Origin: Spirochaetales bacterium
GTDB taxonomy: Bacteria > Spirochaetota > Spirochaetia > Treponematales > Treponemataceae
Length of the DNA: 64,000 nucleotides
Reading direction: 5' to 3'
Assembly: GCA_003246335.1 (NCBI GenBank)
Contig: QKAR01000018.1
Coordinates: 1-64,000 of the forward strand
The notes beneath the pieces were generated by a model that saw only the letters and a program-made list of their open reading frames with translations, searched no databases and was not told the origin of the DNA. Shown here in pieces: positions 49,761 to 62,872 of the stretch (within the stretch, counting starts at the first letter, position 1; every line of letters begins with the position of its first letter). The position numbers and the translations under genes were made by a program.

Positions 49761-51464
49761 ATGAACGAATGGCTGAAAAAGCTTTTTTCGCAGATATCAG
49801 CGCTTTGGGGAAAATGGACCGTTGTCCAGAAATTGATTTTGGGCGGCGTCGTTTTGGCGGCGATCGTCGGAGTCGTCGTCCTTTTTTCCGTTTCGTCCGC
49901 CCCTACCATGGTTCCGCTCATCGACGCCCCGATCACCGACGCCGATGCCCGCGACCGAATCATCGTTCGGCTTAATCAGGAAAACGTAAAAACTTCGGTT
50001 TCGGCGGCCGGCATCATTTCCGTCCCGGACGAGACGACGGCGCGCCGCATGCGCTCGCTTCTCATCCGCGAGGACTTAATCCCGCAGAACACCGACCCGT
50101 GGGCCATCTTTGACGTGGAGCGCTGGACCACGACCGATTTCGAGCGTAACGTCAACAAGCGCCGCGCCATCATCGAGGAAGTCCGTCAGCACATTAAGGC
50201 GATCGACGACATCGACGAAGCGAGCGTCGTGGTAAATATCCCGGAAAAAACGCTCTTCGCCGCGGACCAGGAACCGGTAACCGCGAGCGTCATCCTCTAT
50301 CCAAAGCCGGGTAGCGATTTCCTTTCTAATCGAAAGAAAATTGAGGGTGTCCAGAAAATCCTCAAATTCGCCGTTTCCGGGCTCAAGGACGAAAACATCA
50401 CGATCGCCGACAGTTCTGGAACCGTCCTTAATGATTTCGAGGGCATGAAGGAGTGGGATCGGCTCACCCGAATCGAGAAAGAGCAAAAACTCATCGCTCA
50501 GCTTGAGTCGCAATACCGCGCCAAGATACTGAGCTCGCTTCAGCAAATTTACGGCATGGATCGTGTTCGCGACTTAAACATAAAAATTGAGATGGATATG
50601 TCCGAGAAGGCGATCCAACAGCGCGATTACCTTCCGACGACGATTAAGCCCGATAATCCCGAGACTCCGTATGACGATTCCGAGGTCGTCCAATCGGTGA
50701 CGATATCCTCGGAGACCTCGACGACTCGTTGGCAGGGCTCCGGCTATAATCCCGAGGGGCCCGCGGGCGTCGAGGGTCAGACCGCTCCCGCCTACAAAGA
50801 CATGTCCAACCTCTATGGCCTTTCCGAGCAGTCGATCGTGAAGAAAAACGAGGCGATCGGCCAGCGGGACACGACCGAGACCGTGAGCCCCGAAATGGGT
50901 CGCCGTACGGTTTCCGTCAATATCGACGGGGTGTGGAGCAAAAAGCGCGACGATAAGGGTAATTTCATCGTAACGAACGGGGCAATTGAGCGGGATTATA
51001 AGCCGATTCCTTCCGACGAGTTAAAATCCGCGACGAAAGTCGTGCAGGACGCGATCGCTTTCTCGAGCGCCCGCGGCGACTCCGTAAGCGTCCTCAACAT
51101 TCAATTTGACCGCTCGGCGCAATTCGAGAAAGAGGATCTCGCCTATCTTCAGCGCCAACAGCGTCAGCAAACGATACTCTACGCCCTCATCGCGATCGCC
51201 GTTATCCTCGTCGCGTTCATCTTCTATCGCATGATAACGCGCGAGCTGGAGCGTCGCAGACGGCTCAAGGAAGAGGAGCTTTTGCGCAAGCACCAGATGG
51301 AGCGCGAAAAAACGCTTTGGGAAGCCGAGCAGGCGGGCATGGAGGTTTCCATGTCGGTCGAGGAGCGCAAACGGCTTGAGTTGCAGGAAAACGCGGTGAA
51401 CATGGCGAAGGAACATCCCGAGGACGTCGCCTTGCTCATACGCACTTGGTTGATGGAGGAATAA
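49761..51464 (+). CDS. fliF: Flagellar MS-ring protein FliF
   Basis: PLIDAPITDADARDRIIVRLNQENVKTSVS; RAIIEEVRQHIKAIDDIDEASVVVNIPE; C-terminal TM and tail. Confidence 0.96.
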   Translation: MNEWLKKLFSQISALWGKWTVVQKLILGGVVLAAIVGVVVLFSVSSAPTMVPLIDAPITDADARDRIIVRLNQENVKTSVSAAGIISVPDETTARRMRSLLIREDLIPQNTDPWAIFDVERWTTTDFERNVNKRRAIIEEVRQHIKAIDDIDEASVVVNIPEKTLFAADQEPVTASVILYPKPGSDFLSNRKKIEGVQKILKFAVSGLKDENITIADSSGTVLNDFEGMKEWDRLTRIEKEQKLIAQLESQYRAKILSSLQQIYGMDRVRDLNIKIEMDMSEKAIQQRDYLPTTIKPDNPETPYDDSEVVQSVTISSETSTTRWQGSGYNPEGPAGVEGQTAPAYKDMSNLYGLSEQSIVKKNEAIGQRDTTETVSPEMGRRTVSVNIDGVWSKKRDDKGNFIVTNGAIERDYKPIPSDELKSATKVVQDAIAFSSARGDSVSVLNIQFDRSAQFEKEDLAYLQRQQRQQTILYALIAIAVILVAFIFYRMITRELERRRRLKEEELLRKHQMEREKTLWEAEQAGMEVSMSVEERKRLELQENAVNMAKEHPEDVALLIRTWLMEE

Positions 51465-51467
51465 GGA

Positions 51468-52541
51468 ATGGCCGCAGCCGCATCAACGTCATCGTCGAAA
51501 GATAAAGGGGCATCGACCGGCTCGAAAAAGGCAAAGGACGTAAAGTCTCTTTCCGGTCGCCAGAAAGCCGCGATTTTTCTCGTATCCCTCGGTTCGGAAA
51601 TTTCCGCCGAGATATTTAAGCATTTGCGCGAAGACGAAATCGAGACACTGACGTTCGAGATCGCGCGTCTGGAAACCGTCGAACCGGAGTTCAAGGACGC
51701 AATCCTTCAGGAGTTCCAGGACCTCATGATGGCCCAGAACTTCATCACGACCGGCGGTATCGATTACGCCCGCGAGCTGCTCGAGAAATCCGTCGGAAGC
51801 CAAAAGGCCATCGATATCATTAATCGGCTGACGAGTTCTCTTCAGGTTCGCCCGTTCGACTTTATCCGCCGAACCGATCCGGCTCACCTTTTAAACTTTA
51901 TCCAGCAGGAACATCCTCAGACCATCGCGCTCATACTCGCGTACCTTGAGCCCGCAAAGGCGTCCATCATTCTGCAAAACCTTCCCGACGAGATCCAAAG
52001 CGAGGTCGCGCGGCGCATCGCAACGATGGACCGCACCTCGCCGGACGTTTTGCGCGAGGTCGAGCGCGTTCTCGAGAAAAAGCTTTCGACTTTGTCGAGT
52101 GAGGACTACACGGCGGCGGGCGGCGTCGAGAGCATCGTCGAGATCCTCAACCTCGTCGACCGATCCTCGGAAAAATCCATCATCGAGGCCCTAGAGGACG
52201 AAGATCCTGATTTGGCGGAAGAGATCAAAAAGCGCATGTTCGTGTTCGAGGACATCGTCATGCTCGACGATCGCGCCATTCAGAAAGTCCTCCGCGAGGT
52301 CGACACGCAGGAGCTCGCCAAGGCGCTCAAGTCCGTCGATACCGAGGTTCAGGACAAAATATTCCGGAATATGTCTAAGCGCGCGGCCGGCATGCTCAAG
52401 GAAGACATGGAATACATGGGGCCGGTCAGGCTCAAGGACGTCGAGGAAGCGCAGCAAAAAATCGTTTCCATTATCAGGCACCTCGAGGATACGGGCGAAA
52501 TCGTTATCGCGCGTTCCGGCGAGGACGAACTCGTCGTGTAA
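51468..52541 (+). CDS. fliG: Flagellar motor switch protein FliG
   Basis: LSGRQKAAIFLVSLGSEISAEIFKHLREDEIETLTFEIA; QQEHPQTIALILAYLEPAKASIIL; FVFEDIVMLDDRAIQKVLREVD. Confidence 0.97.
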   Translation: MAAAASTSSSKDKGASTGSKKAKDVKSLSGRQKAAIFLVSLGSEISAEIFKHLREDEIETLTFEIARLETVEPEFKDAILQEFQDLMMAQNFITTGGIDYARELLEKSVGSQKAIDIINRLTSSLQVRPFDFIRRTDPAHLLNFIQQEHPQTIALILAYLEPAKASIILQNLPDEIQSEVARRIATMDRTSPDVLREVERVLEKKLSTLSSEDYTAAGGVESIVEILNLVDRSSEKSIIEALEDEDPDLAEEIKKRMFVFEDIVMLDDRAIQKVLREVDTQELAKALKSVDTEVQDKIFRNMSKRAAGMLKEDMEYMGPVRLKDVEEAQQKIVSIIRHLEDTGEIVIARSGEDELVV

Positions 52542-52553
52542 GGACGGTACTGA

Positions 52554-53489
52554 ATGGCGAAAACGGTATTTAGGCCCAATGAGATCAAGAACACCGACGA
52601 TCACGTGCTTCTTGAGCTGTCGAAAAAATTCGTCGAGGACGTTCCGGTCATGGAAGCGGAACCGGAACCGCTGTACGAAGGGCCGACGGCCGACGACCTT
52701 AGGCGAGAAGCCGAGCGATATCGCCAGGAATGGGAGAGCGAAAAGGCGAAAATGATCGAGGATGCCCAAGCGCAGGCGGCGTCGATCGTCAAAGACGCCG
52801 AAACGGCGGCTTTCGAGGAAGTAAAGCGCAAATCCGATCAAGCCCAGGAACTGCGGCAAAAAGCCGCGGATGAGGCCTCAGACATAGTCTCCCGCGCGGA
52901 GTCAAAAGCCGCCGAAATCGTCGAACTCGCGAATTCCAAAATGGAGGAACAGCTTAAAAACGGCTATTCCGACGGATTCAAAAAAGGCCAAGAGGAAGGA
53001 TTCAAAGAGGGAAACCTCGAGGCTCAGCGCCTAACGGACCGGCTTCACACGATTATCGAGCGCGTGATGGATAAGCGGCAGGAAATTCTCTCCGAGACCG
53101 AGCAGCAGGTCGTCGACCTCGTCCTGCTCATGACGCGCAAAATCGTGAAGGTCATCACCGAGAATCAGCGCAATATCGTCGTCTCTAACGTCGTTCAGGC
53201 CCTGAGGAAAGTGAAGGGGCGCGGCGACGTGACCATTCGCGTCAATCTCAACGACGTCGCCATGACGTCCCAGCACGTGAAGGATTTTCTATCGTCCGCG
53301 GAAAACGTCAAGAATATCGCCGTCGTCGAGGACTCTTCCGTCGATCGCGGCGGCTGCGTCATTGAGACGGACTTCGGTTCGGTCGACGCGCGGATCGTCA
53401 GCCAGCTCAACGAGATCGAGCAGCGTATCCTTGAGGTTTCGCCGATTCGCGCCAGAATTAAAACGGCGAATCCGATTAATCAGGATTAG
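52554..53489 (+). CDS. fliH: Flagellar assembly protein FliH
   Basis: Coiled-coil N-half, GYSDGFKKGQEEGFKEG; VDLVLLMTRKIVKVITENQRNIVVSNVVQALRKVKGRGDVTIRVNLND; between fliG and fliI. Confidence 0.93.
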   Translation: MAKTVFRPNEIKNTDDHVLLELSKKFVEDVPVMEAEPEPLYEGPTADDLRREAERYRQEWESEKAKMIEDAQAQAASIVKDAETAAFEEVKRKSDQAQELRQKAADEASDIVSRAESKAAEIVELANSKMEEQLKNGYSDGFKKGQEEGFKEGNLEAQRLTDRLHTIIERVMDKRQEILSETEQQVVDLVLLMTRKIVKVITENQRNIVVSNVVQALRKVKGRGDVTIRVNLNDVAMTSQHVKDFLSSAENVKNIAVVEDSSVDRGGCVIETDFGSVDARIVSQLNEIEQRILEVSPIRARIKTANPINQD

Positions 53490-53495
53490 CCTTCC

Positions 53496-54911
53496 ATGAT
53501 CGATATTTTCGATAAATACATCGATACCGTCGAGTCCACGGATCCCATTAAGTACATCGGAACGGTTAGCGGCGTCAAAGGCATGCTCATTGAGAGTTCC
53601 GGGCCGCAGGCCATCGTCGGCGAAATTTGCAAAATCGTCCTGTCGCGCGGGAACGCGCCAGTTTTCGCGGAAGTGGTGGGCTTTAGCGAAACGACGGTCC
53701 AGCTCATGAGCTATGGCGACACGACCGGAATCGAGATCGGTTGCCAAGTGATCGCGACCGGTGATCTTTTGACCGTTCCGGTGAGCGACGCGCTTCTCGG
53801 CCGCGTCGTCGACGCCATGGGGAAGGCAGCCGATGGAAAGGGAGAAATTTCCTCGTCGATCCGCTATTCCGCCGTAGCCTCCCCACCGGACCCCCTGCGG
53901 AGAAAGCCGATAGCCGAGCGCATCGTCACCGGCGTCCGCGCGATCGACGGGCTTTTGGCGGTCGGCCGCGGCCAGCGACTCGGCATTTTCGCGGGCTCGG
54001 GCGTCGGGAAGTCAACCCTATTAGGCATGATTTCCCGGAACACGAACGCCGACGTGAACGTGATCGCCCTCATCGGCGAGCGCGGCCGCGAGGTGGTTGA
54101 TTTCATCGAGAACGATTTGGGGCCGGAAGGCCTTAAGCGCTCGGTCGTCATCGTCGCGACGTCCGATCAATCACCGCTGTCGCGCATTCGCGGCGCCTAC
54201 GTCGCGACCGCGGTCGCCGAGTATTTCCGTGACCGGGGAAAGCACGTCATGCTCATGTTCGATTCCGTCACGCGTTTCGCGAAAGCCCAGCGCGAGATCG
54301 GCCTCGCCATCGGGGAGCCCCCCGCGACTCGAGGCTACACCCCAAGCGTATTCGAGACGCTTCCGAAGCTTCTTGAGCGAAGCGGTACTTCCGACCGCGG
54401 CTCGATAACCGGTTTTTACACCGTCCTCGTCGACGGGGACGATATGGACGAGCCCATTTCGGATACCGTTCGCGGCATCCTCGACGGTCACGTCATTCTC
54501 TCGCGGAAACTCGCGCAAAAATACCATTATCCGGCGATCGATGTCCTCGCGAGCGTGTCCCGTCTGTCGAACCGCGTCGCGGGCGAAGCGACTAAAAAGG
54601 CGGCGGTTTTCATTAGGCGCCTCATGGCGGTGTACGACGAGGCCGAGGACATGATAAACGTCGGGGCGTACCAAAAGGGCTCCAACCCCGCGATCGACGA
54701 GGCCATCGCGCATCACGTGAAGATCGAGGAATTCCTCAATCAAGACGTGTCGGACACTGCTCCTCTGTCAAAGACGCTCAAGGCGATGTCCGCCGTCGCG
54801 GGCATGGAAATCCCGGAAAGCGAGGCGGGGTACCAGGGAAGTTCCGCCCATCCGAAATACTCATCGTCGGCCCCATCCGCTATCGGGCCTAGTCCCGGCG
54901 GCGAGGAATGA
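53496..54911 (+). CDS. fliI: Flagellar export ATPase FliI
   Basis: GQRLGIFAGSGVGKSTLLGMISR; ALIGERGREVVDFIE; VMLMFDSVTRFAKAQREIGLA. Confidence 0.97.
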   Translation: MIDIFDKYIDTVESTDPIKYIGTVSGVKGMLIESSGPQAIVGEICKIVLSRGNAPVFAEVVGFSETTVQLMSYGDTTGIEIGCQVIATGDLLTVPVSDALLGRVVDAMGKAADGKGEISSSIRYSAVASPPDPLRRKPIAERIVTGVRAIDGLLAVGRGQRLGIFAGSGVGKSTLLGMISRNTNADVNVIALIGERGREVVDFIENDLGPEGLKRSVVIVATSDQSPLSRIRGAYVATAVAEYFRDRGKHVMLMFDSVTRFAKAQREIGLAIGEPPATRGYTPSVFETLPKLLERSGTSDRGSITGFYTVLVDGDDMDEPISDTVRGILDGHVILSRKLAQKYHYPAIDVLASVSRLSNRVAGEATKKAAVFIRRLMAVYDEAEDMINVGAYQKGSNPAIDEAIAHHVKIEEFLNQDVSDTAPLSKTLKAMSAVAGMEIPESEAGYQGSSAHPKYSSSAPSAIGPSPGGEE

Positions 54912-55339
54912 AGCGCTTTTCCTTTTCGCTTCAGCGGCTTCTTGACTTTCGCGAGTTTCGCGAAAAAGACGCGGAAATCGCGCTCGGAAGGGCTGTGTCC
55001 GCGCGGGAAGAGATATCTCTCGAGCTCGAGAGCGTCGCGAAAAAGCGCGTTGCGGCCGCGTACGAACGGGGCGGCGATTCCCCGATAAACGACCTCCTCG
55101 CGATAGACCGGTTCGTCGCGCGGCTCGACGCGCGCAAAGACGCCCTTTTGGAAGACCTTGCCGCGGCGGAACTCGCCGTAGAGCGCGCCCGGGAGGCGTA
55201 TCTCGAGGCGACCCGCAATCGGCGCGTCATCACGAAACTGCGCGAGCGGCGCGCCGGCGAATGGCGCAAGGAATACCTTGAGGAAGAAGCGGCGAACCTT
55301 GATGACCTAAGCGGGTCTCGCCCGTTTCTCGGTTCGTGA
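54908..55339 (+). CDS. fliJ: Flagellar export protein FliJ
   Basis: MKRFSFSLQRLLDFREFREKDAEIALG coiled coil; ATGA overlap with fliI. Confidence 0.9.
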   Translation: MKRFSFSLQRLLDFREFREKDAEIALGRAVSAREEISLELESVAKKRVAAAYERGGDSPINDLLAIDRFVARLDARKDALLEDLAAAELAVERAREAYLEATRNRRVITKLRERRAGEWRKEYLEEEAANLDDLSGSRPFLGS

Positions 55340-57311: not shown

Positions 57312-59564
57312 CTATCGGCGGAGTTTAAATTTCGCGACGCTCGACTTTAGCGAGGCAGCCCTCGCCGAAAGCTCCTCGCTGGTTGCCGCGCTTTCGTGCG
57401 AAACCGCCGCGTTTGACTGCACGACGCGCTTAACTTGCTGGATATTCGCGTTAATCTTTTCGATTCCGTCGTTTTGGTCCCGTGAGGCGATCGCTATCGA
57501 ATCGATGACGCCGGCGATGTCGGATGCGCTTCTTACGATTTTTTCCAGGGTGGACGCGGTTGCGTTCGCGAGTCCAGACCCCGCTTTCACCTTGTCGTCC
57601 GACTCGTCGATGAACGACGCGCTTTCTTTCGCCGCGTCCGAGCAGCGAGTCGCGAGATTCCTGACCTCGTCCGCGACGACTGCGAATCCTTTTCCGTACT
57701 TTCCCGCGCGCGCCGCTTCCACGGCCGCGTTCAGGGCGAGAATGTTCGTCTGAAACGCGATATCGTCGATCGTCTTGAGGATATTGGTGATGTTCGATGA
57801 CGCGAGCGCTATTTCCCGCATGGAGGCGACTAAGTCGCTCATGAGTCGGTTTCCGCTTTCCGCCGACTCTTTCGCCGCTGACGAAAGAGTCAGCGCTCTC
57901 TCGGCGTTCAGCGCGTTGAGCCTCGTTTTTTCGGTTACCATGCCGATAAGCGAAATAAGTTCGTCGACGGCGGAAGTTTGCTCGCTGGCTCCCGCAGCGA
58001 GATCGTTCGCGCCCAACGCCACTTGTTCGGCTCCCGCGCTAAATTGGTCGGCCGCGTCTTTAATTTCGTAAATCGTCGCGTCGAGCGTCGAGACGATCCG
58101 CTCTATCGCGTTTCGTATCAGGGCGAATTCGCCGGAGAAATCGTCGGATATATCAACGGTGAGGTTTAGGTTCGCTACCTCGTCGAGGGCATCCACGATG
58201 GCGGACGAGTAGCGCGATAGCTCGTCGATGAGCCTCGTCTTTTCGCCGAGGCTCGCGCACTCAAGCTCGATCTCCCGCTGGTTAAAGCGTATGCAATTCC
58301 TCCGGTCGTTAATCCCGTCGAAGATGGCGCGCGCCATCTGCTCGCACGTTTCGTAACCGCACGCGGAACAGTTGATCTGTCGAGCTTGTTCCGTCTCTTT
58401 ATGAAGGCCGAGATACACGGTCTCAAGATCAGTCTTCGAGGGGCTCGATCGCGGCGCTCGTCGGTCCGCGTACGCGCGCGTAAAGTCTTTGAGATCAAGT
58501 TCCCGATCGAAGAGGCGAAAGAGTTCCGCTTGCTTTGTTCTGAAACGCGCTCGCTCATTCGATTTCGAGGCTTTGAGCGCGTTGAGCGTCGCGTCCGCGT
58601 CGTCGATCGATACTTCCGCGCAGGTGCCCGTTCCTCGATTGCAACCGTTCGCGCAATTTAAGACGTCGACCAGTAGCGGCACGCTCGCCTTGCGGGATAT
58701 CCTACCGCCATATTCGTCGATATACGGATACGCGTGATGTATTCCCTCGATTTGCCTGACCCAGGCGCCCTTAACGAGCGCCTCGACGTTTTCGCGTAAG
58801 CCTCCCGGCCTGCTATAGAGGCATCCGAGCCAACATCCGATATCGTCGAAACCGCTTGGGGCGAATCGCGAAAGGTCGACGCGCGCGGCGTCGAGATGCT
58901 CTTTTAGCTTACGATAGGTGACGTTGTACCGCACGAATCCCTGCGTGTTTTTATCGCGAAATTCGTCGGCCTTACCGATGCAGGGCGAGAGAAAGGCGAC
59001 GCTATCGGTTATCTTTAGGTATTTTTTCATGTAAATCGCGGTGCAGAGCGTCGGGCTATGCACGGGCGCGAGCCTTGAAATGAGTTCGCTCCGGTACTTT
59101 TCGACGTAGTTGACGATCGCTGGGCACGGTTGGGCTATGACCGACGAGAGCGATTTTTCCTTAATGGCCTTGAGGTAAGCCCACGTCGTGATATCGGCGC
59201 CGAAGGAAACGTCGTATACGAGGTTGACGCCGATGGATTTGAGGTAGCCGAGCAGGTTTTCGTAGTTGGGAAAGTTAACCCTTGAGGCGGGCGCCGCGAC
59301 GACGGATATTTTCTCTCCCCGAGCGAGATCGGAGAAGAACTTTTCGGCGTCGTCGCGATATTGCCGGGCGCCGTGGGTACAAGCCGCGAGGCAGGCGCCG
59401 CAGCGAATGCATTTGGCTTGATCGACCGTTACGCGGTTTTCTCCGTTTTCGACGCGCGAAATATTCGCCCCGTCGACGGGGCACACGCGTATGCATTTAT
59501 TGCAGCCGACGCATTTTTCGCCAACCGTATAGACGATTTCGGTTTCGCCGTCATTTCGGCTCAT
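57312..59564 (-). CDS. Ferredoxin / [FeFe]-hydrogenase-like H-domain / 4Fe-4S domain fused to a methyl-accepting chemotaxis signalling domain
   Basis: [12 protein letters not shown] and [12 protein letters not shown]-domain [49 protein letters not shown] hairpin [43 protein letters not shown]. Confidence 0.93.
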
Positions 59565-60066
59565 TTTCCGTTACCTGCATCGGCGCGAGAAACTCGATAT
59601 CCTCGTCGGATAGTACGGCCCGGATATCGAGGATTACGATGAACTGATCCTCGACGTGCCCCATTCCGTCTATGAAACTTGTCTTCAGTTTCGACCCAAT
59701 TTTGGGTGGGGGCTCGATCTGGTCTTCCCGGATCGTGATGACTTTTTTAACGGTGTCGGCGAATATTCCCAACCGAAGGAAATTTTCCGTTTCTTCGTCG
59801 GCGCTCGCGGATATCTCCACCACGATGATCGCGGTGTCGCCGGTCACGACGGTCTCGCCCATCCCGAATTTCTGCTTGAAATCAAGAACGGGAACGACCG
59901 CGCCCCGCAAGTTCAGGATACCCTTCATGAAATCCGGCATTCTCGGGATGACGGTTATTTTGGGCACGACGAGAACTTCCCGCACGTCGGTAACGGGGAT
60001 CGCGTATTGATCGCCTGAAATAGTGAACGTCAGGAATTGATTCGACGTTTGATTCGCGTTTGCCAT
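59551..60066 (-). CDS. cheW: CheW-like chemotaxis coupling protein
   Basis: [58 protein letters not shown]. Confidence 0.94.
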
Positions 60067-60150: not shown

Positions 60151-61455
60151 TTAGCCCAATTCCTCGGTTTTCCCCGCGTCAACGTCGATGGCGAGTACGC
60201 CGAGAAATTCCCCTTCAACCGACTTTACGGGTACGGCGACCGTGATGCATAGAGTGTTCGTCGCGCTCGAAAAATACGCGGGCGAAACGTACGGCTCCCC
60301 CGTCGACCGGGGTATCGCGAAATATTCCTTACCCGAACGCTTGACGCCGTACCCTTCGCCGCTTATTCTGCTCGCCTTCGCCGGATTACCGAGATTCGAT
60401 GATATTTGCGTTCCTTCCTCGTCCATGGCGTAAATGAGCTCAAAGGCTTTTGATTCGGCGAAGGCCGCCGAAAGCGTACGATCGAGAATTTCGCGATTTT
60501 GGAGTTCCCTTGGCGAAATCCGTTTCGCGAATTCGATCGTGCGATCGATCGCCGCGCGGCGATGGGCGGAGCCGCGCGCATCAAGGCTATTGAACGTGTC
60601 GAGCGTGGATTTTCGTAAGGCCGTGGCGAGTCCCGCCGCGGTATCTCCCTGCCCGACGATGAGCGAGCATTCGTCCGCAATGGCCCGTACGTCGGACGAG
60701 ATCGCCTGCTCGGCTTCCACGCGTTCGCGCGCGATGGCGCTGAATTCGGAAACGCTTTTTTCGGCGATTTCCGCGTTAGAGGCGATGCGTTCGAAGTCCC
60801 CGCTGAATCTGCGCGAAGCATCCGCCGCCGAGGACGCGGATGCCCGCGCGCTTTCGACCGAGGTACCCAACGCCCGAAGCCCTTGCTCGGCTTTTGATAC
60901 TTTTCTTAGTATTCCCTCGGAGAGTCGGCCCGATTCTTCCGACAACCGACGTATTTCGCGCGCGATCACGGAAAAGCCCCTTCCGTGATCCCCGGCTCTG
61001 GCCGCCTCGATAGACGTATTAATGGCTATGACGCCGATATTTTCCGTCGCGTTTTTAATCGCCTGAGAGTCCCTGACGACTTCCTCGATGAGCGACGAAA
61101 GTTCCCGGAGAAATGACGCGCTTTCCGTCGCTTGTGCGGACATGACCGCAATGTCGCGAGTGAGTTGCTCGACGTCCCTTTTTTTCCCTTTTGCCTGACG
61201 CGCCGTTTCCGCGATGGAGGAGGAGAGTTCAGCCGCGCGCGTCGAAAATCCGCCGAGTTCCGCAACCCCTTCTTCAAGCCGCATCTTTATGGCGCCGACG
61301 CTATTCTGTTGGTTCCGGACGGATTCCTTGAGCGATTCCATGCCGCGCTCCAGCGAACCGGTAATGCGGGCGCTCTCCAACGATGATTTGAAAATTGCAT
61401 CGGAAAGCGCCGCGTCGCTCGAAGCCGAGTTGTATTCTGTCGTGGTGTTTCTCAT
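60151..61455 (-). CDS. Soluble methyl-accepting chemotaxis protein with C-terminal Cache/PDC-like sensor domain (start ATG 61455 or GTG 61473)
   Basis: Signalling motif IKNATENIGVIAINTSIEAARAGDHGRGFSVIAREIRRLSEES in the N-half; C-terminal YAMDEEGTQISSNLG...GKEYFAIPRSTGEPYVSPAYFSSATNTLCITVAVPVKSVEGEFLGVLAIDVDAG; no TM segment. Confidence 0.88.
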   Translation of the reverse strand: MRNTTTEYNSASSDAALSDAIFKSSLESARITGSLERGMESLKESVRNQQNSVGAIKMRLEEGVAELGGFSTRAAELSSSIAETARQAKGKKRDVEQLTRDIAVMSAQATESASFLRELSSLIEEVVRDSQAIKNATENIGVIAINTSIEAARAGDHGRGFSVIAREIRRLSEESGRLSEGILRKVSKAEQGLRALGTSVESARASASSAADASRRFSGDFERIASNAEIAEKSVSEFSAIARERVEAEQAISSDVRAIADECSLIVGQGDTAAGLATALRKSTLDTFNSLDARGSAHRRAAIDRTIEFAKRISPRELQNREILDRTLSAAFAESKAFELIYAMDEEGTQISSNLGNPAKASRISGEGYGVKRSGKEYFAIPRSTGEPYVSPAYFSSATNTLCITVAVPVKSVEGEFLGVLAIDVDAGKTEELG

Positions 61456-61462
61456 TGAAGAA

Positions 61463-61491
61463 ACTATATCCACTCTTTAGTTGATTGGCAA
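61463..61491 (-). promoter_or_regulatory. Promoter TTGCCA-17-TATAGT for the chemosensory operon
   Basis: Minus strand hexamers; -10 ends 7 nt before ATG 61455. Confidence 0.6.
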
Positions 61492-61534: not shown

Positions 61535-62872
61535 TTATCGTATGTTGAATAGCTCGCGGTGAAAGTCTCCGCTATTCATGCCCGCATTGATGAGGCTTCT
61601 CCTAAGGGTTTTCATGAATCCTGCGGGCCCGCAAAACCACACGCTTCCCTCTTTCCAATCGGGATTTTCCTCCATGATTTTTTCGCCGGTTAGTCGGCCC
61701 AAGCGCGCGCTATCCCAAATCTTGAGCTGGACGCCGGCCTTCGCGGCATCGGAGCGAATCTCGTCTTCGAGCCCGCCGTCGCTTCGAGAGACGGAGTAGT
61801 ACAGCGTTATCTTTGCGGTTCGGTCGCTTTTGGCGGCGAGCTCCCTCAATCGACCGATAAACGGAGTAATCCCGATGCCACCCCCGATCCAAATTTGGGA
61901 TTTTTTCCCGTCTACGAAATTAAACCTACCGTACGGTCCCTCTACGCGCACGACATCGCCTTCTTTGATCGAGGAAGGCAACCGTTTCGTATAATCGCCG
62001 AGTTCTTTAACGAAAAAATACAAGATTCTGCCGTCATTCCATTCCGATGCGATCGAAAATGGGTGAGGCTCGTCGAGGAATCTCGTTTTCAGAAACGCGA
62101 ATTGACCCGCGCGGTGCCCTATCCATTTTTTCTCGAGTTTAATGCCGATTTTTAGGGTACTCAGTTCGGGGTGTCTTTCGACGGTCACGACGGTCCCCCT
62201 TACTCGTCGGGCATTATTCGCGACGCGGAAGAAAATGAGAGTCGCGTAGACGGCGCCAATCGCCATCATGATCGCGGTGAGGACGCCGATTGGGCTGAGC
62301 CAGTACGCGCGTGTGAAAAGAACCGCTGAATGGAATACTAAGGCGAGATAAATGACGCTTTCAAGCCGATGCGAAAGGGCAAAAACCCGATAACCGATAA
62401 ATGTGAGCAACGCGATAAGCCCGAGTACTATCATTAGGTAAAACGCCCATTGGCTCGTCCAATGCGCGGGCCCCGTAAGTCGCTGAAGAAGGGTTTGCTC
62501 CGCAGTTCCGGGCCCCCCGTGTCCAGCGGGCCGTCCTCCACTCGACGCCATGATGCCGAACTGCATGAGAATCTTGAAGCCTGCGGCCAAAAACCAATGG
62601 ATGACGACGATCGCCATCGCAAGGATTCCCGCCCATTTATGGACCCGATACATCTTGTCGAGCCCACCCATAGCGCTTTCGAGCCAAACGGGTCGGGCCG
62701 CGAGCAGCACGCAGAGCGTGAGAAACCAAAAACCTAAAACGCCGGTAAGCTGAATAAAACCGTCGCGTAGGCCGAAAAACGTCGCCGTTTTGAAAGAGGC
62801 CCATCCTGTCAGCAACCAAAGTGCCGCAAGCGCCGCGCTAATGCCGGTTATTACGATAACATTTCTTCTCAT
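61535..62872 (-). CDS. Ferric-reductase-like transmembrane flavocytochrome with FAD/NAD(P) oxidoreductase domain
   Basis: Multi-TM N-half with HKWAGILAMAIVVIHWFLA and HRLESVIYLALVFHS; HPFSIASEW FAD motif; IWIGGGIGITPFIGRLREL; WFCGPAGFMKTLRRSL. Confidence 0.9.
   Translation of the reverse strand: MRRNVIVITGISAALAALWLLTGWASFKTATFFGLRDGFIQLTGVLGFWFLTLCVLLAARPVWLESAMGGLDKMYRVHKWAGILAMAIVVIHWFLAAGFKILMQFGIMASSGGRPAGHGGPGTAEQTLLQRLTGPAHWTSQWAFYLMIVLGLIALLTFIGYRVFALSHRLESVIYLALVFHSAVLFTRAYWLSPIGVLTAIMMAIGAVYATLIFFRVANNARRVRGTVVTVERHPELSTLKIGIKLEKKWIGHRAGQFAFLKTRFLDEPHPFSIASEWNDGRILYFFVKELGDYTKRLPSSIKEGDVVRVEGPYGRFNFVDGKKSQIWIGGGIGITPFIGRLRELAAKSDRTAKITLYYSVSRSDGGLEDEIRSDAAKAGVQLKIWDSARLGRLTGEKIMEENPDWKEGSVWFCGPAGFMKTLRRSLINAGMNSGDFHRELFNIR

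Follow-up and report, generated by a model that had tools for sequence, protein, structure and literature searches.

We identified a gene that is predicted to encode a soluble chemoreceptor built on an [FeFe]-hydrogenase H-domain in a 64,000-nucleotide stretch of DNA from a Spirochaetales bacterium (hereafter, the window). Judging from its sequence, the receptor probably steers swimming by hydrogen or redox state. It is very likely a redox- or H2-responsive taxis receptor, and its assignment to the [FeFe] sensory hydrogenases, as the type defined by HydDB group C2, is the reading that we favor with reasonable confidence. It is somewhat probable that an H-cluster is actually present in the protein, and H2 sensing by the receptor is plausible. 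The features of the gene and its neighbors are listed in Table 1.

Table 1 Features of the receptor gene and the adjacent genes. Positions are those of the window, and CpI residue numbers were assigned to the receptor by motif.
Feature	Position	Strand	Basis
H-domain chemoreceptor gene	57312..59564	(-)	intact ORF, 750 aa
Ferredoxin-type domain, two CxxCxxCxxxC motifs (residues 13-67)	59364..59528	(-)	Pfam Fer4_10, Fer4_7, Fer4
[FeFe]-hydrogenase H-domain (residues 85-311)	58632..59312	(-)	Fe_hyd_lg_C 89.8-92.7 bits; PDB fold match
L1 motif QPCP: Cys147 = CpI Cys300; Pro146 in place of proton-transfer Cys299	59121..59132	(-)	alignments
L2 motif SPCIGK: Cys195 = Cys355, Lys198 = Lys358, Ser193 in place of Met353	58971..58988	(-)	alignments
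L3 motif CANGC: Cys304, Cys308 = Cys499, Cys503	58641..58655	(-)	alignments
C-terminal Fe-S domain Cx2Cx4Cx16C (residues 396-425)	58290..58379	(-)	Pfam FeS PF04060, 27.8 bits
HAMP-like linker (residues 457-495)	58080..58196	(-)	weak HAMP_2 match; Tar alignment; tip distance
MCP signalling hairpin (residues 479-749), Tar/Tsr-like length	57318..58130	(-)	MCPsignal 160 bits; model helices
cheW	59551..60066	(-)	CheW 117 bits; 14-bp overlap with receptor start
Second MCP-like protein, upstream of cheW	60151..61473	(-)	MCPsignal 59 bits, MCP-like_PDC_1 32 bits

The initial annotation had described a single frame of 750 residues. Indeed, the gene starts with ATG, contains no internal stop, and occupies exactly the bounds given in Table 1. 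Pfam profiles were found in the order Fer4_10 (residues 13-62), Fe_hyd_lg_C, FeS, and MCPsignal, and each match exceeded its curated cut-off (22.1, 23, and 34.6 bits for Fe_hyd_lg_C, FeS PF04060, and MCPsignal, respectively), which confirmed the layout first read from the motifs, namely two ferredoxin motifs, an H-domain, a further Fe-S motif, and an MCP hairpin. The cysteines of the ferredoxin domain (18/21/24/28 and 52/55/58/62) correspond to two [4Fe-4S] motifs. The peak Kyte-Doolittle score of a 19-residue stretch was only 1.21; accordingly, the receptor is considered to have no membrane helix, in agreement with the earlier claim of a cytoplasmic protein with no periplasmic domain.

An assembly error or a frameshift that joined two genes would also produce such a protein, and the initial annotation had named this as a possible refutation. 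However, collinear full-length homologues were found in independent assemblies, at 59-61% identity over approximately 740 residues (L018, L019, and G195/L078) and at 45% identity (L020 and L021). Therefore, the fusion of the H-domain and the MCP stands, and these relatives refute an artefact, which we regard as extremely improbable.

Alignment with relatives showed that all four H-cluster cysteines are kept in the receptor (Cys147, Cys195, Cys304, and Cys308), together with the equivalents of CpI Lys358, Pro354, and the Ala-Pro loop. As the first reading had held, the cluster cysteines of the loop positions are kept, and the L1 loop has a single cysteine, the proton-transfer residue being lost. 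Leu302, just upstream of the L3 motif, was found in place of Met497. Every tabulated MCP-fused relative keeps the four H-cluster cysteines, the Lys358 and Pro354 equivalents, and the four Fe-S cysteines. The motifs of catalytic group A enzymes (TSCCP, MPCxAKK, and ExMxCxGGC) were absent, with QPCP, SPCIGK, and LNCANGC at these places. Among the NCBIfam profiles, the H-domain was nearest to group B1 (130 bits, cut-off 450) and then to group A (TIGR02512, 93 bits, cut-off 406); scores so far under the cut-offs are expected of a divergent sensory H-domain. In the AlphaFold model, the H-domain was confident, with most 10-residue blocks at 85-95, and matched [FeFe]-hydrogenase structures in the PDB with a best E-value of 2.9e-19; CbA5H, HydA, and CpI were matched with E-values of at most 1e-15. 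Among sensory sequences, approximately 10% have Pro in place of Cys299 and approximately 32% have Ser in place of Met353 (PMC10055695).

Low turnover is retained by the sensory proteins TmHydS and TamHydS despite the loss of Cys299 (PMC10055695, PMC6984386), and the receptor might likewise serve mainly to turn over H2, as a slow hydrogenase attached to the chemoreceptor array. This is very unlikely, however, as none of Cys299, Met353, and Met497 is retained, the H-domain scored 93 bits versus 161-327 bits for the genome's other complete H-domains, and a complete MCP hairpin follows it in the same chain. The cytoplasmic fusion of H-domain and MCP, the kept ligand cysteines, and the lost Cys299 point to a sensor feeding CheA/CheW rather than an enzyme, which supports this part of the function originally proposed.

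The cysteines of the C-terminal Fe-S domain are residues 399, 402, 407, and 424, and a domain with this Cx2Cx4Cx16C motif typifies the M2e/M2f sensory enzymes (PMC6984386, PMC13104023). The excised linker matched HAMP_2 weakly (E 0.003, under the HAMP_2 cut-off), and residues 222-515 of E. coli Tar, the HAMP region included, aligned with the receptor hairpin with no gap. The last Fe-S cysteine and the hairpin tip are 192 residues apart in each of the four members of the window's clade; for the order's common receptors with a measurable tip, this distance was 137-140 residues. The difference of approximately 54 residues equals the size of one HAMP domain, and the linker is missing from those common receptors that were measured. 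The HAMP-like insert is a variant of the linkage and no new kind of receptor. The MCPsignal match spans residues 560-714; in the AlphaFold model, helices 479-619 and 621-749 form the long antiparallel coiled-coil hairpin with a conserved tip that is characteristic of MCPs, and candidate methylation sites lie close to residues 524 and 726.

With the overlap given in Table 1, the receptor is likely to be translationally coupled to cheW. On the opposite strand, fliF, fliG, fliH, fliI, and fliJ were found at 49761-55339 (names read from translations). A conserved operon context was considered and rejected, as near relatives have no cheW, second MCP, or flagellar genes beside the receptor, which stands alone in them; this lack of a kept cheW neighborhood counts against our preferred explanation. 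The second MCP-like protein (60151-61473) has an unusual order, in which the MCP signalling domain comes first and the C-terminal end is formed by a Cache/PDC-like domain; elsewhere, the genome encodes another protein of comparable length, whose MCP score is about equally low (G000:C97:3088-3594). Adjoining the chemotaxis genes, 61535-62872 (-) encodes a protein in which FAD- and NAD-binding domains come after a ferric-reductase-like transmembrane domain.

A search for hydEFG in the genome had been set beforehand as a check, and all three genes were found: HydE, HydF, and HydG, located at C87, scored 335, 501, and 424 bits, respectively, all above the cut-off. Since the organism has HydEFG, an H-cluster is the preferred cofactor of the receptor. 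The genome also has a flagellar operon, CheA-type genes at three loci, and MCP matches that number more than 30. Furthermore, it encodes two group A hydrogenases with TSCCP and one of group B, as well as a sensory H-domain protein that is distinct from the receptor and linked to a phosphatase; H2 is therefore considered to be part of the metabolism of this organism. At one locus (G000:C23; L082:4396-9113, minus strand), the group B hydrogenase, a SpoIIE-type phosphatase, and the sensory H-domain protein are encoded in a row; the last carries SSACP and Cx2Cx4Cx16C, a set that is C3-like and phosphatase-linked. Another locus (G000:C78; L083:3289-4527) encodes a hydrogenase-like protein that carries SCCCP and GMGCVGGC and scores under the group B cut-off; a protein with a DsbD-like/heavy-metal-associated domain is encoded next to it. 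The HydG of this genome (G000:C87; L079:6054-7415) scored 424 bits versus 840-945 bits in many genomes of the order, and this spread of scores corresponds to two or three distinct HydG types inside the order.

Receptors of this kind are already predicted in the literature and common in their order; hence, novelty of kind was not supported. HydDB defines [FeFe] group C2 as "chemotactic (putative)", with putative H2 sensing through methyl-accepting chemotaxis proteins (PMC5037454), and the receptor, which carries MCPsignal in the same chain as its H-domain, has no stated difference in kind from this group. A genome-mining study discarded clostridial C2 calls as unvalidated hydrogenases (PMC9431212); consequently, a C2 label calls for manual verification, as was carried out here. 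Of the features of the sensory [FeFe] groups C and D, the receptor has four H-cluster cysteines, a two-cluster ferredoxin, Cx2Cx4Cx16C, and a replacement of the proton-transfer cysteine, a residue that most members have replaced. Ballor, Paulsen and Leadbetter are said to have proposed in 2012 that sensory H-domain proteins of termite-gut treponemes act in phosphorelay, methylation, and possibly chemotaxis.

The group C protein TmHydS of Thermotoga maritima shares two ferredoxin clusters, an H-domain, a C-terminal Cx2Cx4Cx16C Fe-S domain, and the loss of Cys299 with the receptor, whereas its output is PAS instead of HAMP-MCP; at Cys299, Met353, and Met497 it has Ala, Gly, and Ser, whereas the receptor has Pro, Ser, and Leu (PMC10055695). 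TmHydS stays active although Ala takes the place of Cys299 (PMC10055695). TamHydS of Thermoanaerobacter mathranii (group D/M2e) has Cx2Cx4Cx16C, Ser in place of Met353, and Leu in place of Met497 in common with the receptor, and forms a working H-cluster that turns over H2 (PMC8163306), but unlike the receptor, it has no fused output domain. That two of these positions are exactly as in the H-cluster-forming TamHydS argues by analogy for the favored reading. The same kind of comparison also yields an argument against it, since the change of Met497 to Leu in CpI cost this catalytic enzyme its [2Fe] cluster (PMC10055695).

The ferredoxin-H-FeS-MCP architecture was found across Treponematales, Clostridia, and Calditrichota, and the sensor module with its QPCP, SPC, and LNCxxGC motifs was fused to MCPs, GGDEF-EAL proteins, and histidine kinases, some of which have receiver domains. 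The query was matched at E 1e-60 or better in 108 of the 197 genomes of the order, a count that covers the module with any output, MCP fusions not being separated. All 15 fetched proteins of 670-753 residues from other genomes of the order were MCP fusions (seven confirmed with Pfam), and the notion that the fusion is limited to the window's genus was thus rejected. Other members in Treponematales (L077, L085-L097, and L099) and Lachnospiraceae (L027-L041) share the architecture and the three motifs with the receptor; they differ in having no HAMP-like insert where measured, a different hairpin, and a sensor-module clade of their own. In a 66-row tree of the sensor module, the output label needed 10 changes and the MCP label at least 4 (starred branches), and the window clade was set apart from the common treponemal clade. 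When the two spirochaete clades were held together, the AU test gave p 0.087 (p 0.17 with L020/L021). As this is no rejection, a separate origin of the MCP fusion in the window clade was dropped and is not claimed.

HydG and HydF were above the cut-off in 65 and 76 of the 197 genomes of the order, respectively. Among the 46 genomes at least 95% complete that bear the sensor module, HydG and HydF were present in 21 and lacking in 25, and 13 of these 25 also lacked a group A hydrogenase. We rechecked 21 genomes with HydG at E up to 0.001 and HydE at E up to 1e-15: both were above the cut-off in the same four genomes, and neither was in the remaining 17. The latter include the receptor-bearing, two-contig genomes G056 and G107, in which HydF was likewise not found; nevertheless, the G056 receptor retains every cluster cysteine. 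All ligands are kept in the MCP receptors of eight genomes without HydG. The occurrence of the same active-site letters in near-complete genomes without HydEFG tells against the favored explanation.

These observations bring in a different receptor, whose H-domain would hold a cubane without [2Fe] and whose four cubanes would report ferredoxin or oxygen/redox status, the ligand not being H2. Because receptors keep the H-cluster pocket in genomes without a known [2Fe] route, it is possible, though we put it forward only tentatively, that in the QPCP-type H-domain, a hydrogenase fold has been converted to redox sensing for taxis with [4Fe-4S] clusters only, so that chemotaxis would read electron balance and not H2. 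For the receptor itself, we consider this less likely than an H-cluster. Its own genome has HydEFG. CpI Lys358 contacts the [2Fe] cyanide, and each of the eight tabulated MCP receptors from maturase-less genomes retains this lysine. Moreover, group A hydrogenases with intact motifs (L103, L104, L106, and L107) also occur without HydEFG in near-complete Treponematales genomes (G060, G020, G004, and G123, respectively). These hydrogenases carry TSCCP, MPCxAK, and EVMACxGGC or EIMACPGGC; HydG and HydE were not found in the four genomes, of which G060 is a single contig, and HydF was absent at 1e-70. In the sample, 28 genomes at least 95% complete have a group A hydrogenase and no HydG/HydF. Since intact-motif catalytic hydrogenases share this situation, missing HydEFG was rejected as proof of a missing H-cluster, and in this order, absence of HydEFG may not mean that H-clusters are absent. 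The order would thus have either many H-domain proteins without H-clusters or another maturation route.

For the H-cluster-bearing receptor that we prefer, the following course is conceivable. HydEFG would load the [2Fe] subcluster into the H-domain, and the redox state of the H-cluster would be set by H2 binding or, via the two ferredoxin clusters, by the electron balance of the cell. With Cys299 gone, turnover would be slow and the reduced state would persist. A change of state in the C-terminal [4Fe-4S] domain may then strain the HAMP-like linker, and the hairpin would alter CheA activity, so that swimming would follow H2 or the internal redox state. As the same sensor occurs in many relatives without HydEFG, "H2/redox" is not narrowed to H2 here.

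In the literature searched, neither an experimental test of H2 taxis via a dedicated receptor nor a tested C2 protein was found. The receptor described here is an intact example that is accompanied by HydEFG and cheW in one genome and has close homologues for comparison. The less expected result is that about half of its well-sequenced sensor-bearing relatives are without the known cofactor-making genes; as an alternative to a [4Fe-4S]-only sensor, the same data may indicate H-cluster maturation without HydEFG in Treponematales. Spanning genomes with and without the H-cluster pathway, the receptor family provides a test case for whether sensory H-domains need an H-cluster.
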